Shown here: one piece after another, positions 2,510-40,807 of the stretch
Layout of the letters: each line of letters begins with the position of its first letter
How positions within the stretch are numbered: position 1 is the first letter of the stretch
Origin: Lachnospiraceae bacterium
GTDB taxonomy: Bacteria > Bacillota > Clostridia > Lachnospirales > Lachnospiraceae
Reading direction: 5' to 3'
DNA: 41,024 nt
Assembly (NCBI GenBank): GCA_017482205.1
Contig: JAFUNK010000005.1
Location: 1 to 41,024 of the forward strand
Made by a program: the position numbers and the translations under genes
The notes under the pieces: generated by a model
The model's input: the letters and a program-made list of their open reading frames with translations, nothing else
The model's database searches: none
What the model was told of the DNA's origin: nothing

Positions 2510-2672
2510 GTAGTTACGAAAAACAATTTTATATCTCACACGGACCCGTTTGCACTCTAAAAAGACGTAACGGATACATAAGGCGGCAGGACATATACAT
2601 GTCCTGCCGCCTAAGTACCGACGTCTTTTAAAGGTCCTTTGTTGAGATATAAAATTGTTTTTCTTACGTTAC
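2510..2672. repeat. Structured palindromic element, copy A (diverged)
   Basis: This fills the gap between two convergent genes. The outer arms 2518-2538 and 2643-2663 are a perfect 21-bp inverted repeat. Inside, GGACC (2542-2546) pairs with GGTCC (2633-2637), AAAAGACGT (2560-2568) pairs with 2621-2629, and a 14-bp perfect apical stem (2581-2594 with 2599-2612) is closed by ATAC. The inner sequences acgtaacgg...ataag and taagtaccgacg resemble acgtagcggtactaag and taagtgccgacg of copy B at the same structural positions. It could also act as a bidirectional terminator, but it is far larger than one. Confidence 0.75.
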
Positions 2673-2754: not shown

Positions 2755-4242
2755 CTATACTCTGCCGTACAGCTTGCAGAGTTCTTTTATTTTTTCTGCT
2801 AATTCTACCGTGCATACACCGGGTTTCATACGCCACTTCCAGTTATTTCCCAAGGTGGAGGGCAGATTTATTCTGGCGCTGCCTCCCAGGCCCAGATAAT
2901 CCTGCATAGGAATAATGGCGGTATCCGCCACGGAAGATATGGCTGCTCTGATAAGCGTCCATTCCACATTCTTCTGTCCCCGCTTTATCTGTAAATAGGT
3001 ATTTACATGCTTACGCTCCTTGCGGGAAAGGCTCTTGTACCAGCCAACGGTAGTATCATTGTCGTGCGTTCCGGTATATACCACACAATTGTTTATATAA
3101 TTGTGGGGCAGGTATGCATTGTTTTCGTCTGAACCAAAGGCAAACTGCAATACCTTCATGCCGGGATAACCGGTCTTTTTTACCAGTTTTAAAACGCTGG
3201 GGGTAAGAAAACCTAAATCTTCCGCAATAATATTTTTCTTACCCAGTTTCTTTTTCATGGTATCAAAGATATCTATGCCCGGTCCCTTACACCACTTACC
3301 GTTTACTGCGGTTTCATCCCCGTAAGGAATGGACCAGTATTCATCAAAGCCTCTGAAATGGTCAATACGTACCACATCATAGAGTTTGTAAGCATGTGCA
3401 ATACGCTTCATCCACCAGTCGTAGCCCGTTTTCGCATGATACTCCCAATCATACAAAGGATTTCCCCACAACTGTCCTGTTTCAGAAAATGCATCGGGGG
3501 GACAACCGGCAACCGCTGTGGGTACACAATTTTTATCCAACTGAAACAGCTTGGGCTCCGCCCATGTGTCTGCACTGTCAAAAGCTACATAAATGGGAAT
3601 ATCTCCTATAATCTCAATCCCCTTTTTGTTGGCATAGGTTTTCAATGCCTTCCACTGAACAGAAAATTCATACTGTTCAAATCTGTAATATGCCAAGTCC
3701 GCAGCCAGTTTTTGGGTATATTCTTTCACTGCCGCTTTTTTGCGCAGACGGATATCTTCCTCCCATTCACTCAAGCATACGCCGCCAAAGCTATTTTTTA
3801 CCGCCATATACAAAGCATAGTCTTCCAGCCACCACGCATTTTCTTTTATAAATGCCTGATAATCAGCTTTACTCTCCAAGCCTTGTTCAAACGCTCTTTC
3901 ACATGCTTTTTTCAGCAGTATAAAACGGAAGTTATAAATTCTTTCGTAGTCTACATATTCTTCATGCCCTACAAATTCACATTCTTCACACTCTTTACGG
4001 GTCAGGTAACCTGCCTCAATTAGCTGCTCCAAATCAATATAATAGGGATTACCTGCAAAGGTGGAAAAGGACTGATAGGGAGAGTCCCCATAGCCTGTTG
4101 CTCCCAGAGGCAGAATCTGCCAGAGTTTTTGCCCTGCTGCCGCAAGGAAGTCCACAAACGCATATGCTTCTTTAGAAAAAGTACCGATACCGTACTTGGA
4201 CGGCAGACTGGATACCGGTAACAGAATTCCACTTTTTCTCAT
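2755..4242 (-). CDS. malQ: 4-alpha-glucanotransferase (amylomaltase, GH77)
   Basis: A cytoplasmic GH77 disproportionating enzyme that transfers alpha-1,4-glucan segments and releases glucose. At 495 residues it is full length for the family. The N-terminus RKSGILLPVSSLPSKYGIG is characteristic. The catalytic residues are visible: nucleophile D294 in VRIDHFRG, acid/base E341 in IAEDLGF, and the stabilising aspartate D394 in GTHDND. PIYVAFDSADTW and the NLPSTLGNNWKWR tail are also typical. The start has AAGGAG about seven bases upstream. It lies 235 bp downstream of glgP on the same strand, separated by structured element B. Together they would degrade glycogen or maltodextrin to glucose 1-phosphate and glucose. 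Confidence 0.96.
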   Translation of the reverse strand: MRKSGILLPVSSLPSKYGIGTFSKEAYAFVDFLAAAGQKLWQILPLGATGYGDSPYQSFSTFAGNPYYIDLEQLIEAGYLTRKECEECEFVGHEEYVDYERIYNFRFILLKKACERAFEQGLESKADYQAFIKENAWWLEDYALYMAVKNSFGGVCLSEWEEDIRLRKKAAVKEYTQKLAADLAYYRFEQYEFSVQWKALKTYANKKGIEIIGDIPIYVAFDSADTWAEPKLFQLDKNCVPTAVAGCPPDAFSETGQLWGNPLYDWEYHAKTGYDWWMKRIAHAYKLYDVVRIDHFRGFDEYWSIPYGDETAVNGKWCKGPGIDIFDTMKKKLGKKNIIAEDLGFLTPSVLKLVKKTGYPGMKVLQFAFGSDENNAYLPHNYINNCVVYTGTHDNDTTVGWYKSLSRKERKHVNTYLQIKRGQKNVEWTLIRAAISSVADTAIIPMQDYLGLGGSARINLPSTLGNNWKWRMKPGVCTVELAEKIKELCKLYGRV

Positions 4243-4260: not shown

Positions 4261-4462
4261 AATTGTTGCAAAATAATGGGGCAGTTATCGGTTGTAAAAA
4301 GTTTCCTTGCAGACACGCTCTCGCTCCGTGATAAACGTAGCGGTACTAAGCGCGAACCCTTCTTAAAAAGAAGGCTTCTTGCTAAGTGCCGACGTTTACC
4401 AAGGGTCTGCACCGGAAAGCTTTTTACAACCGCTAAATTGCCTCAAGTATTTTGCAACAATT
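4261..4462. repeat. Structured palindromic element, copy B
   Basis: A 202-bp element that fills the gap between glgP and malQ. The outer arms 4261-4274 and 4449-4462 are perfectly complementary (14 bp), and the inner arms 4289-4301 and 4420-4432 give another 13 bp. GCAGAC (4309-4314) can pair with GTCTGC, TAAACGT with ACGTTTA, and a CGGTAC/GTGCCG block precedes an apical hairpin of CCTTCTT and AAGAAGG. The core gcagacacgctctcgctcc and agcggtactaa are identical in copy C, whereas the arms and apical hairpin differ but remain paired. The strand of any transcript is unknown. Confidence 0.85.
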
Positions 4463-4477
4463 ATTAACTCGCTCTTA

Positions 4478-6745
4478 CTATAATTTCCAGATGTCCCTGT
4501 TGTACTCTGCGATGGTTCTGTCGGAAGAGAAGAAACCTGCCTTTGCCACGTTTACAAGCATCATACGTTTCCACTTTTCTCTATCCTCATAGTCCGCAAA
4601 CATCTTGTCTTTGACTTCGATATATTCTTCTAAGTCAAGCAAGGTCATAAACCAGTCCTTATTTAAAAGTTCATTGTAAAGTCTCTGTAAGTTCTTTTTG
4701 TTGCCTGCTTTCAATGCCTGTTTGCTGATAATGAAGTCCACTGCCTCTTTGATAATAGGGCTCTTATCATAATAATCCTTGGAAACATAATCTGCTTTTG
4801 CATAGTGCTCAATTACTTCGTCAGACTTTTTACCGAAGGTATAAATATTGTCTTCGCCCACCAGCTCACCGATTTCTACGTTTGCACCGTCCAAGGTTCC
4901 CAATGTTACGGCGCCGTTTAACATAAACTTCATGTTACCGGTTCCGGATGCCTCTTTGGACGCCAAGGAAATCTGTTCAGAAATATCACAGGCAGGAATC
5001 AGCTTTTCTGCATAGCTGACATTGTAATTTTCTACCATTACCACCTTCATATACGGACTTACCGCAGGGTCCTTTGCAATAATATCCTGCATTACTAAAA
5101 TCAGGTGGATAATGTCCTGTGCAATAATATACGCAGGTGCTGCCTTTGCACCGAAAATAAAGGTCAGGGGACGTACCGGTTTCTTGCCAGCCTTGATTTC
5201 CAGATACTTGTGAATAATGTAAAGTGCATTCATCTGCTGACGCTTGTACTCATGCAGACGCTTAATCTGAATATCAAAAATGGACTCGGTATCCAGTACA
5301 ATACCTTCTTTTTTCTCAATATACTCTGCCAGCTCTTTTTTCTTCTGCTTTTTAATAGCATCCAGACTGTTTAAGATGTCTGCATCCTCTTTGTAAGCCA
5401 GCAGTTTTTCCAACTCATCCGCATCCTTTTTATAACCGTTACCGATAGTTTTTGTAAGCAGTGCGGACAGCTCCTTATTGCAGGACAATAACCAGCGTCT
5501 AAAGGTGATACCGTTTGTCTTGTTATTGAACTTATCAGGGTACAACTTATAAAAATGGTTCAGCTCCGTATCCTTTAAAATATCAGTATGGATAGCTGCT
5601 ACACCGTTTACGGAGAAACCGTAATGGATATCGATATGTGCCATATGCACACGTCCGTCCTTGTCAATAATCTGCACTTTAGGGTCGGCATATTTTGCAG
5701 CGGTTCTTCTGTGCAGTTCTTTGATAATCGGTATTAACTGCGGCACTACTTTGTTTAGATATTTAAGCGGCCACTTTTCCAATGCTTCTGCTAAAATGGT
5801 ATGGTTTGTATAAGCACAGGTTTTGCTCACCACCTCAATGGCTTCGGACATGGTAAAATCTTCTTCAAATACCAAAATACGAATCAGTTCGGGAATAACC
5901 ATAGTCGGATGGGTGTCATTAATCTGAATCACCGCATGGTCATAAAGTTTGCGTAAATCGAAACCCTTTTCCTTCATTTCTGCAATAATCAGTCTGGCTG
6001 CATTGCTTACCATAAAGTACTGCTGATAAATACGCAACAGGTTTCCTGCTTCGTCAGAATCATCGGGATACAAAAACAGAGTCAGGTTCTTCTCCACATT
6101 TTCTTTGTCAAAATTGATACCCTTTTTCACAATGGACTCGTCAACGGTTTCCAAATCAAACAAATGCAACTTGTTGACACCGCTCTCATAACCGGCCACA
6201 TCAATATCGTACATGCGGGATTTCACGGTACAATCACCGAATTCCACATCGAAAGTAACATCTGTCTTACGTAACCAAGACTGCTTTTCAATCCAGTCGT
6301 TCTTCTCTGCAGTCTGCAATTTGTTGGTAAATACCTGTTTGAACAATCCGAAATGATAGTTGAGGCCGATACCGTCACCATTTAAACCAAGGGTGGCAAT
6401 AGAATCCAAAAAACAGGCTGCCAGTCTGCCAAGACCACCGTTTCCCAAAGAAGGCTCCGGCTCAATTTCTTCCAACGCTGCAAGAGACTTGCCGTTCTTT
6501 GCCAGCAGGCTTTCTACCTCTTCATACAAACCTAAGTTAATTAAATTGTTGCTTAAAAGCTTACCGATTAAAAATTCCGCGGAGATATAGTATACTTTTT
6601 TATCTCCGGTAACTGGTGTTTTGCCATCAATATATTCCTTTGTCAGTTCTAACAAGCTGTAATACAGTTCCTCATTGCTGCATTTTGCAATCTCAGTACC
6701 GTAAGTTTTCTTTGTCAATGCGTTCCATTTTTGTTCCAAACTCAT
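4478..6745 (-). CDS. glgP: Glycogen/starch/alpha-glucan phosphorylase (GT35)
   Basis: PLP-dependent phosphorolysis of alpha-1,4-glucan to glucose 1-phosphate. The motif [13 protein letters not shown] carries the PLP lysine (residue 606 from the chosen start), followed by [12 protein letters not shown]. The N-terminal [19 protein letters not shown], the INDTHP segment and NGITFRRWL are also diagnostic. About 755 residues is the short form common in Firmicutes. I prefer the ATG at 6745 (MSLEQKWN), which has AAAGG upstream. An alternative ATG ten codons earlier at 6775 lacks a ribosome site, but cannot be excluded. It is upstream of malQ and downstream of the YfhO gene on the same strand. No allosteric control is visible. 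Confidence 0.95.
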
Positions 6746-6835
6746 TGTTTTACTACCTTTCGTAACTTTTTTCATATAATATTTTATTTTGCCTGCACCA
6801 TGTTATCCTGTGCAAGTCTTTCTGTTATCGTATTA

Positions 6836-11103: not shown

Positions 11104-11130
11104 ACAAAAAAATAAGACCTTACGGTCTTA
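11104..11130 (-). terminator. Rho-independent terminator of the tRNA operon
   Basis: On the minus strand TAAGACC pairs with GGTCTTA (11113-11119 with 11124-11130) and is followed by a run of at least seven T (11106-11112). It lies after the two tRNA-tail repeats and just before the MATE gene, so it would end the tRNA-Arg-His-Gln-Lys transcript. Confidence 0.8.
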
Positions 11131-11242
11131 GTGAAGCACGGGGGATTCAGAACCCAGGGGGTTCGAATCAATTCGAACTTCTATCTTAGTGAAGCACGGG
11201 GGATTCAGAACCCAGGGGGTTCGAATCAATTCGAACTTCTAT
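11127..11242 (-). repeat. Two tandem 58-bp repeats containing copies of the tRNA-Lys 3' end
   Basis: Units at 11127-11184 and 11185-11242 appear identical, and the same phase continues into the true tRNA-Lys 3' end at 11243. Each carries the last part of tRNA-Lys (GAATCCCCCGTGCTTCAC in transcript sense) plus the following TAAGATAGAAG. Each also has a perfect small palindrome of GTTCGAAT and ATTCGAAC and a G-rich segment. None has a D-arm or anticodon arm, so they are not tRNAs. They would be transcribed as a tail behind tRNA-Lys before the terminator. Confidence 0.88.
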
Positions 11243-11247
11243 CTTAG

Positions 11248-11320
11248 TGAAGCACGGGGGATTCGAACCCCCGACAACCTGATTAAAAGTCAGGTGCTCT
11301 ACCGACTGAGCTAGTGCTCC
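11248..11320 (-). tRNA. tRNA-Lys (anticodon UUU)
   Basis: Acceptor GGAGCAC pairs with GTGCTTC, the discriminator is A, and the anticodon loop CTTTTAA gives UUU. The T-arm is GGGGG-TTCGAAT-CCCCC. It is the last tRNA of a four-gene minus-strand operon, and its 3' end is duplicated twice in tandem downstream. Confidence 0.97.
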
Positions 11321-14588: not shown

Positions 14589-14670
14589 TTATCGGTCACT
14601 TTTATTATATGCCTGTGACACGAAACATATTATAAATAATTTTCTACCGATTGTCAACCGCCGAAAACAG

Positions 14671-14865
14671 TTGTTGCGAAATAGGTTGTTTCATATCCGA
14701 TATAAAAAGTTTCTTTGCAGACACGCTCTCGCTCCATGCGAAACGCAGCGGTACTAAACTCAAATTATCTCTTCGAGATATTTTCGTTAAGTGCCGGCGT
14801 TCCACAAGGGTCTGCTCCAGAAAACTTTTTATATCGGATATTCAAACAAGACTATTTCGCAACAA
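14671..14865. repeat. Structured palindromic element, copy C
   Basis: A 195-bp element between tRNA-Pro and the chemoreceptor gene. The outer arms 14671-14684 and 14852-14865 are perfectly complementary (14 bp), and the inner arms 14693-14712 and 14822-14841 add 20 bp. The core gcagacacgctctcgctcc, agcggtactaa and aagtgccg-cgtt-acaagggtctgc matches copy B nearly base for base. The apical hairpin here is TATCTC-ttc-GAGATA, unlike B in sequence but at the same place. Positions that differ from B in stems change on both sides. Confidence 0.85.
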
Positions 14866-14882
14866 TCTTTTTTCTTTAGTAC

Positions 14883-16373
14883 TTATGCTTCCTGTGCTGC
14901 TTTTAATTCCTGTGCATTTTCGTTTAAGTGGGCTGCAATTTCGCCTACCACGCCAACAATCTTCACATTTTCACGGCAGCTATCCATGGTTTCACTGGAA
15001 TGTGCGGTAACCTCTTCCGTAATTGCGGAAATAGTCTGAATGTTCTGTACAATGTCTTCATTCGCAGTTGCCAGATTGACTATCATCTCTTCCATATCCT
15101 GGGTCTTACCGGTAATATCTTCTGTCATCTCGGCAATTACTTTAAAGCTCTTGTCCAGTTCCACAGCTCTTTCGTTCTGCTGCTTTGTATTTTCTTCCAA
15201 AACACCTACTGCTTCTGCTACCTGTTCCAGTTCTTCGCCTACATCTTCAATCAGTTCAGTAATGGTAACCGTTGCTTCCTTGGTCTGGGATGCCAAATCA
15301 GATACCTGCGTTGCTACTACCGCAAAGCCCTTACCTGCATCTCCCGCTCTGGCAGCTTCAATACTTGCATTTAATGCCAGCATACCGGTTCTGTTTGCCA
15401 CACCATTGATTACGGTAATAATTTCATTCATCTTTTCTGCCTTACCCTGCAGTTCCTTCATCAGGGATACTACCTGTGCATTTGCCTTACCGGACTTTGC
15501 AGACTGCTCTTCCAACGCATTCATGTTGGACATACCGTTTCTTACTTCAACCGATGCGGTTTCCATTCCGTTCTTAATATGTACCCCGATTTCTTTTACT
15601 TCATCAATCAATCGCTGAATTTCTTCTGTACGAACCAACTGATTCTGCACGGATTCTGCTGTTTCCAAAGTACCTGCACTTACTTCTTCCATGGCTACTC
15701 CCATCTTTTCGGTAGCAGTACCCAGAATATTCATATGCTCATCAACCTGTGCAATACCTACGGATAACTCGCCGGAAAGACGGATTACCTCCTGCAACAG
15801 TTTTTCTACTTTTTCTTTTTCGCTTTCCACAGCCTGTTGTTTACCATCGTTAATCTGTTTGCTGATATTGGTAGTAACAGCTACATAAACACCTATCAAT
15901 AATACAATCATAATACGGATTTCCAAATCAGGAACTTCTTCTGCCGTATAGCCCACAGTCAATGCTCTGTATACAATATCCACAATATTGATTGCACATG
16001 CAGCACCACCCGCAAACAAAATATACTTAATATTATTGTATAAAGTCAGAATAATCAGTATCGGTATTACATAAATAAACGGCAGAATACTGTTAGTCGT
16101 CAATGTTGTCAGTGCATATAACACCATATAGCTGCATGCAACTATCACTTTGATTTTCGCATCTTCTCTGTTTTTACGATACATTACGGCTTCTACCGCC
16201 ACCGGTGCCAACGCCAGAAGTGCCAGCACTATAAAGTACACTATGGTTCTGCTGCCCTTCAATACTTCCAATAGGTATGCTGCTGTAATGATACCACAAA
16301 GGCTGCCGTGGCAAACGATTACTCCAAAGTTAATCCTTGCCATGTCACTGCGTTGTTTCTTTTTTGTTTCCAT
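14883..16373 (-). CDS. Methyl-accepting chemotaxis protein with a multi-helix membrane sensor
   Basis: A 496-residue receptor. The first 175 residues form about six transmembrane helices with very short loops, so sensing is likely within or at the membrane rather than by a large outer domain. There is no clear HAMP domain. From about residue 190 a long coiled coil leads to the MCP signalling domain. The hairpin tip is [21 protein letters not shown], followed by [16 protein letters not shown], which binds CheA/CheW. It starts 28 bp downstream of yfcE and may be the last gene of that cluster. The ligand is unknown. Structured element C lies just beyond its stop. Confidence 0.9.
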
Positions 16374-37687: not shown

Positions 37688-37730
37688 CTTTTTACAAACA
37701 TTTACAAACAAAATTTGTATGTAATAAAAA

Positions 37731-37797
37731 TAGGAGAAACGCTGTAAATTCAACGTTTCTCCTATTTTTAATTTACTGCTGGTGGCCGGACTTGAAC
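37731..37797. repeat. Direct repeat of tRNA-Leu 3' end plus terminator (attachment-site copy)
   Basis: This segment aligns without gaps with 40741-40807: the hairpin GGAGAAACG/CGTTTCTCC, a short AT spacer, then ACTGCTGGTGGCCGGACTTGAAC, which is the complement of the tRNA-Leu(UAA) 3' end. About ten of 67 positions differ. After 37797 the tRNA similarity stops. It is the expected scar of site-specific integration into a tRNA 3' end and bounds the 3-kb defence segment. Confidence 0.82.
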
Positions 37798-40731: not shown

Positions 40732-40772
40732 AAAACAAAATAGGAGAAACGCTGTAAAATCAACGTTTCTCC
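40732..40772 (-). terminator. Terminator of the tRNA-Leu(UAA) transcript
   Basis: GGAGAAACG (40743-40751) pairs with CGTTTCTCC (40764-40772), followed on the minus strand by TATTTTGTTTTG. The hairpin is part of the duplicated att segment (second copy at 37731). Confidence 0.78.
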
Positions 40773-40807
40773 CACTTTTTAGATACTGCTGGTGGCCGGA
40801 CTTGAAC
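40741..40807. repeat. Direct repeat overlapping tRNA-Leu 3' end (attachment-site copy)
   Basis: The partner of 37731-37797, 3,010 bp away. It covers the tRNA terminator and the last 21 bases of tRNA-Leu(UAA). Together the two copies delimit the RloB/ATPase/integrase segment. Confidence 0.82.

Follow-up and report, generated by a model that had tools for sequence, protein, structure and literature searches.

A probable MITE-like repeat of Lachnospiraceae that keeps a folded core while its ends change

The palindromic repeats at three places in the window, the whole 41,024-nt stretch of Lachnospiraceae DNA analysed here, are probably copies of a MITE-kind, non-autonomous element that measures about 185-250 bp and has inverted ends, long paired arms and a conserved folded core. 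Bacterial MITEs are usually known by their ends, and their middles are dispensable. Here the middle is kept as a fold across genera and the ends change, and the element can be described as a 'MITE turned inside out', with a conserved core fold and exchangeable ends. This reading rests on a dispersed, multicopy, non-coding unit, on the fixed ends, direct repeats and insertions into terminator-like palindromes of one relative's copies (genome G032), on ends of that type next to IS4-family transposase genes in relatives, on placement at gene 3' ends in the own genome and on the core fold. The family provides a testable case of selection on folded nucleic acid within a selfish DNA element. The features of the three copies are as follows.

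4261..4462, no strand: copy B, whole palindrome, between glgP and malQ
4306..4413, minus strand: copy B conserved core (model R1, 157 bits on the minus strand against 47.3 on the plus; model R2, 90.5 bits; alignment A3)
4317..4324, minus strand: copy B GC-GAGA-GC hairpin, with a GNRA loop on the minus strand (from the sequence and the loop tally)
4350..4383, minus strand: copy B variable apical hairpin, limits set by eye
14668..14868, no strand: copy C, whole palindrome, with a methyl-accepting chemotaxis gene on one side and tRNA genes on the other
14714..14818, minus strand: copy C conserved core (R1, 149.6 bits; R2, 93.7 bits)
2515..2666, no strand: copy A, from a divergent subfamily whose outer arms and apical stem are its own
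2537..2642, minus strand: copy A conserved core (R1, 68.9 bits for 2520-2664)

Copies B and C lie where the first-pass annotation had placed them. Copy B is flanked by two minus-strand genes, glgP (4478-6775), encoding glycogen/starch phosphorylase, and malQ (2755-4242), encoding 4-alpha-glucanotransferase, and copy C lies 3' of the methyl-accepting chemotaxis gene (14883-16373, minus strand). The predicted folds have energies of -99.9 kcal/mol for B (z -14.3 against shuffles) and -88.1 kcal/mol for C (z -13.7), and that of A has a z of -14.0. In copy B the core combines an inner stem with a long, interrupted one, an apical arm and a GNRA hairpin. B and C have in common, in the same order, gcagacacgctctcgctcc, agcggtactaa, aagtgccg-cgtt and a last block, caagggtctgc (ccaagggtctgc in B, acaagggtctgc in C). 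The compensatory exchanges reported between them are genuine, with A-T replaced by G-C in the outer stem and T-A by C-G in the AACG stem. The annotation had counted three copies; A, B and C do form one family, but this family is far larger, occupying 61 places in the window's own genome.

Other repeats were observed in the window. Positions 11126-11299, beside a tRNA cluster, hold two exact 58-nt tandem copies and a diverged third, and these contain tRNA-like GGGGGATTC/GTTCGAATC stretches. A 71-nt block that contains a hairpin and the beginning of a tRNA-like stretch occurs twice, at 37727-37797 and 40737-40807 (92% identical), and only the block at 40737-40807 overlaps an Rfam tRNA match.

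The family was searched for with a covariance model, R1, built on 30 copies. In the window's own genome (G000, 2.16 Mb, 74% complete), R1 detected 61 distinct places that score at least 65 bits as well as some weaker ones, and a DNA search gave 53 matches with fragments and reverse-strand matches counted. The covariance-model search of Lachnospiraceae that the annotation had proposed revealed similar elements in relatives of several genera. Within the same genus, 24 of 36 other sampled genomes had matches, from 1 to at least 51 per genome, and no R1-type match was found in 24 genomes of other families in the order. An exact-pattern scan of GTDB returned at least 117 stretches with a match. Those listed were mostly Lachnospiraceae, and also Robinsoniella, Eisenbergiella (the cultured E. 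tayi has matches), Mediterraneibacter, Fusicatenibacter and Acetatifactor, with a few other titles such as one Gastranaerophilales bin. A second model, R2, used with strict filters, matched 11 of 391 genomes of the class, all 11 in the window's family; five listed members of that family had no match, nor did any of the 375 sampled class genomes outside it (360 of them not named individually). Viral carriage was looked for in IMG/VR, which had no exact pattern match. The element is short and non-coding (186 bp in G032, ~205 bp in the relative G017), and by ORF guesses its own-genome copies are nearly all intergenic, with a spanning ORF of at least 150 aa in 4 of 61. The G017 and G032 samples used below are the best-scoring 20 stretches of each genome, out of at least 51 matches in G017 and 42 in G032.

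Three parts make up the conserved core: the inner stem, the long stem, which is interrupted and carries a variable apical hairpin, and the GNRA hairpin, whose stem has two pairs. R1 gave 101 matches in other genomes, of which 95 were put in the core set and 94 finally kept; the partial matches L136, L169:1-109, L176, L130 and L139 were left out, as was L125, and L127:4372 was skipped. Alignment A3 comprises 120 cores hand-picked from 189 distinct ones. Its structure has 32 pairs, 27 of which are altered on both sides yet still paired, and the mismatches and bulges of the core are kept across the alignment. Paired cells amount to 91.2% compared to 75.2% after shuffling, with none of 500 shuffles as good, and to 30-50% in slid controls, a comparison that favours the structure because it was derived from A3 itself. 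The annotation had named hits that are exact copies lacking covariation as grounds against its reading, and A3 instead gave covariation at 27 of 32 pairs.

The loop of the small hairpin is GNRA in 60 of the 61 own-genome copies, the exception being GCAT, and in all 42 copies from G017 and G032. In the 94 cores from other genomes the third loop position is always a purine, a tally that is partly circular since the search pattern prescribed loop positions 1 and 4, and the anchor used in the script prefers GNRA-like loops. Core cells with GU or UG outnumber those with AC or CA about three to one (146 to 48). At the 26 well-paired core positions, G-U was counted 89 times and A-C 32 times; one pair (columns 57-91) gives 37 G-U cells, and the ratio without it is 109 to 48. 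Together, the GNRA loop and the excess of G-U over A-C point to a core fold that belongs to the minus strand of the window. The first-pass annotation had read the element as either a structured RNA or a palindromic mobile element; strong covariation in the core upholds the first half, with the strand corrected to minus.

Covariation, together with conservation across genera within one family, would also be expected if the host had spread, and were using, a genuine non-coding RNA or a cis-acting element of mRNAs. We consider this improbable, as the element's orientation to genes is not constant, as genomes of a single genus differ from having no match to having at least 51, and as the largest clusters of neighbouring genes resemble common host families. 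A partner gene adjacent to the element was looked for by clustering 690 ORFs from the loci, and this candidate was rejected; the largest listed cluster (14 loci) was ABC-transporter-like by eye. A known non-coding RNA was rejected as a candidate: consistent with the annotation's view that no known class fits, a search of Rfam 15 gave no family at gathering score, and the best match below threshold was to MIR2646 (34 bits, E 8e-5, with the gathering score at 245). The element is a large covarying family with no matching Rfam 15 model.

The arms were compared by pairing each copy's arms with its own and with those of other copies. For the 61 own-genome copies the mean own-arm score was 28.7, compared to 8.6 for 3660 between-copy swaps; 42 copies outscored all their swaps and 19 did not. 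Counts of GU+UG against AC+CA in the outer arms were 82 to 74 in the own genome, 106 to 90 in other genera, 61 to 10 in G032 and 14 to 33 in G017. Having no consistent strand preference, the outer arms are better read as a DNA palindrome than as a further RNA helix. The ends vary by genome, reading CAATGTCATTTAG... in the 186-bp unit of G032 and TAGGTAATTGCGAAACTC... in the unit of about 205 bp of G017, and copies from these two genomes measure 186-209 bp, with one of 225. Their ends match as terminal inverted repeats in 8 of 20 G032 and 16 of 22 G017 copies. In the own genome, 25 places have ends of the GGGGCTGTTGCAAAATAG type, not all of them with a core, and six short hairpins (L399-L403 and L405) have whole or partial arms and no core. 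These core-less hairpins are most simply explained as centre deletions.

Hairpins that keep only their arms suggest palindrome instability. They and the outer arms' lack of a consistent strand preference would suit an ordinary MITE, whose core would serve as a binding site in double-stranded or cruciform form and whose arms would stay paired through template switching within the palindrome (quasipalindrome correction) rather than through selection on the fold. This account seems unlikely to us, since the mismatches and bulges of the core persist, its loop is GNRA and the core is strand-asymmetric. A MITE-kind element whose folded core is conserved remains the preferred reading.

A second palindromic element (GACGGAAAT...GACAAAAACG...GCCCTTATTTTGTC...ATTTCCTGT) was seen by eye upstream of 10 of the 22 G017 copies (L263, L266-L272, L274 and L278) and, inverted, in L264. 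At L268 its fold has a z of -5.9, and it has no Rfam match at gathering score.

Element copies on opposite strands and less than 1 kb apart form 11 pairs, and in all 11 the 5' ends face each other. This arrangement recalls REPINs and would fit a hairpin element that, like REP/REPIN, is moved as single-stranded DNA by a Y1/RAYT transposase. Such an origin is very improbable, given that PF01797 was not found in the six genomes with at least 30 matches (G000, G005, G012, G017, G027 and G032; assemblies 73-87% complete), on which ground the REP/RAYT candidate was set aside, and given the direct repeats and IS4-type ends of G032. A reverse transcriptase was also considered as a partner, and its domain PF00078 was found in four of the six high-copy genomes and in two of six zero-copy genomes. 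A further candidate that was set aside is an attC-like integron site.

Several lines of evidence bear on the mobility of the MITE-kind element. Of 29 relatives compared, 15 have malQ within 330 nt after glgP and lack the element there (by eye); one relative, G036, has an R1 element just 3' of glgP, and G006 has a weak, 35-bit match there. Exact direct repeats at the ends of G032 copies are CACCGGTG, GACGCAAGT and GGGCATAGGT, and TGCAGRCACA occurs with one mismatch. These are 8-10 bp long at the clearest sites, and most of the 20 G032 copies have no recognised direct repeat. Repeats abut the ends at L283, L291, L292 and L301 in G032 and at L266 and L279 in G017, the latter two with a 10- or 11-base repeat. 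Overall, a repeat of at least 8 was found in 5 of 20 G032 copies (two of the five not abutting the ends) compared to 12.9% of swaps, and direct repeats were found in 8 of 22 G017 copies compared to 26.4% of swaps, a slight excess. In G000, they occurred at a length of at least 8 in 6 of 59 copies, under the 16.9% of swaps, and thus with no excess of target duplications.

The flanks of the G032 copies pair with each other, with a mean duplex energy of -23.4 compared to -14.4 (sd 4.8) for swapped flanks, and 9 of 20 fall below the 5th percentile of swaps. Several of these flank palindromes look like terminator hairpins that have tracts of A and of T, and about half of the 20 copies sit inside terminator-like palindromes. 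The flanks of G017 copies are not palindromic (-10.4 own, -11.7 swapped). For G032 we abandoned the idea that the arms derive from copies of neighbouring genes, because the outer pairing there is accounted for by insertions, marked by direct repeats, into palindromes that were already present. In G000, the arm pairing of copies L101 and L104 extends into gene ends.

Placement was tallied for the 61 own-genome copies, with genes taken from ORF guesses: 31 lie between convergent genes (+R-), 6 between divergent genes (-R+), 8 in +R+ and 12 in -R- settings, and 4 were unassigned. Since convergent and divergent pairs are equally numerous on a circle, 31 against 6 (two-sided binomial P 4e-5) indicates a strong bias towards gene 3' ends. 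T-rich arm ends were counted in 50 of 122 cases in G000 (23 of 120 control windows), 14 of 40 in G032 (4 of 40) and 12 of 44 in G017 (9 of 44). As a repeat, the element may shape the 3' ends of genes.

A 22-base pattern of the G032-type end, allowing up to 3 mismatches, was found in 17 of 138 genomes of the genus, with most sites in G032. In each of three genomes (G027, G512 and G537) a single such end was seen, 44-171 nt beyond the limits of a DDE_Tnp_1 ORF. By NCBIfam the G027 and G537 ORFs belong to the IS4 family, and that of G512 falls just under the cut-off (105.3 against 115 bits). G477 has an R-like core between G032-type ends (by eye). DDE_Tnp_1 and the Y1 transposase gave no match in G000, which is 74% complete. 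The end pattern compared with transposase genes was of the G032 type, and a transposase with ends of the G000 type was not encountered. The mobile-element half of the earlier reading is borne out by the scatter of copies, by inverted ends and a number of direct repeats, and by the IS4-type ends beside transposase genes in relatives. Mobility in the relatives is well supported, and we infer that the window's own type has been mobile as well.

IS4-type ends were also seen in other settings. In G484 (L342, 1501-2659) a 1159-bp unit has such ends around a calcineurin-like phosphoesterase gene, with no transposase ORF seen inside, and a 10-bp repeat, CCCATTAATG, lies in a terminator-like hairpin. 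By eye, IS4-type ends interrupt element cores in L302 (G027), near position 1064, and in L026/L359 (G000:C17). In L302 the cut falls exactly on the GNRA hairpin, which might suggest that this hairpin acts as a target.

A mechanism can be proposed from these comparisons. An IS4-type transposase would move G032-type copies in trans, and another transposase would move, or have moved, the own-genome type. Landing in or near terminators could keep the element harmless, and the insertion would add a long bidirectional hairpin able to end or protect transcripts. The core would fold in minus-strand transcripts or in single-stranded DNA, presumably functioning in one of these forms, and may be retained since it helps the element persist through hairpin stability, factor binding or insulation. 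More tentatively, one structured RNA module may have been carried through one family by switching among transposon ends that are unrelated to each other: those in G032 and, by eye, in G477 are IS4-type, and those in the window's genome are of the TTGCAAAA type. Such an RNA symbiont of DNA transposons would have its fold, not its ends, as its conserved identity, and would act in the transcript, whether in its processing, in termination or by binding a protein, so that insertions are tolerated.

The family is not named in the open PMC literature searched, and it was compared with the known systems closest to it. REP sequences, as the available text of PMC3733652 describes them, are palindromes of 20-40 bp tagged GTAG or CGTC; the present unit is 186-209 bp (one 225) and has no GTAG/CGTC end tag. 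BOX, RUP and SPRITE of pneumococcus are likewise small interspersed folded repeats, with inverted ends that pair in BOX and RUP and enrichment near gene 3' ends in SPRITE (PMC3049150, in part); they are streptococcal and are set apart here by description, not by alignment. Resemblance to IS4-family elements lies in the G032 ends, CAATGTCATTWAGTTWAG, which by eye fit the IS4 and IS4Sa end signatures listed in the accessible part of 'IS4 family goes genomic', and in repeats near the duplication lengths given there, about 10 bp in the family and 8-10 in the subgroup IS4Sa (PMC2266710). In contrast to those elements, the present one has a conserved folded core and no transposase, and the own-genome ends are different. 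IStrons also join a structured RNA to a DNA transposon (PMC4227781, excerpted text), whereas the present element has no group I intron match in Rfam and no internal transposase. MRSC-65-2, from the portion of PMC11109978 consulted, is alike in its dozens of copies per genome, its long covarying stem and a transposase gene sometimes nearby, and is unlike in its single long stem, conserved UYCCGG repeat and diverse phyla. The present core is branched, has a GNRA hairpin and is found in one family, and its A3 consensus lacks UYCCGG. According to the same portion, its authors consider that the structure of a mobile/repeat candidate may matter as DNA. Judged by these partial descriptions, the element belongs with the 'mobile/repeat sequence candidates' of that study, but not with MRSC-65-2, and the family may sit unnamed among its 250 mobile/repeat candidates or among the 250 palindromic candidates of PMC8040213.
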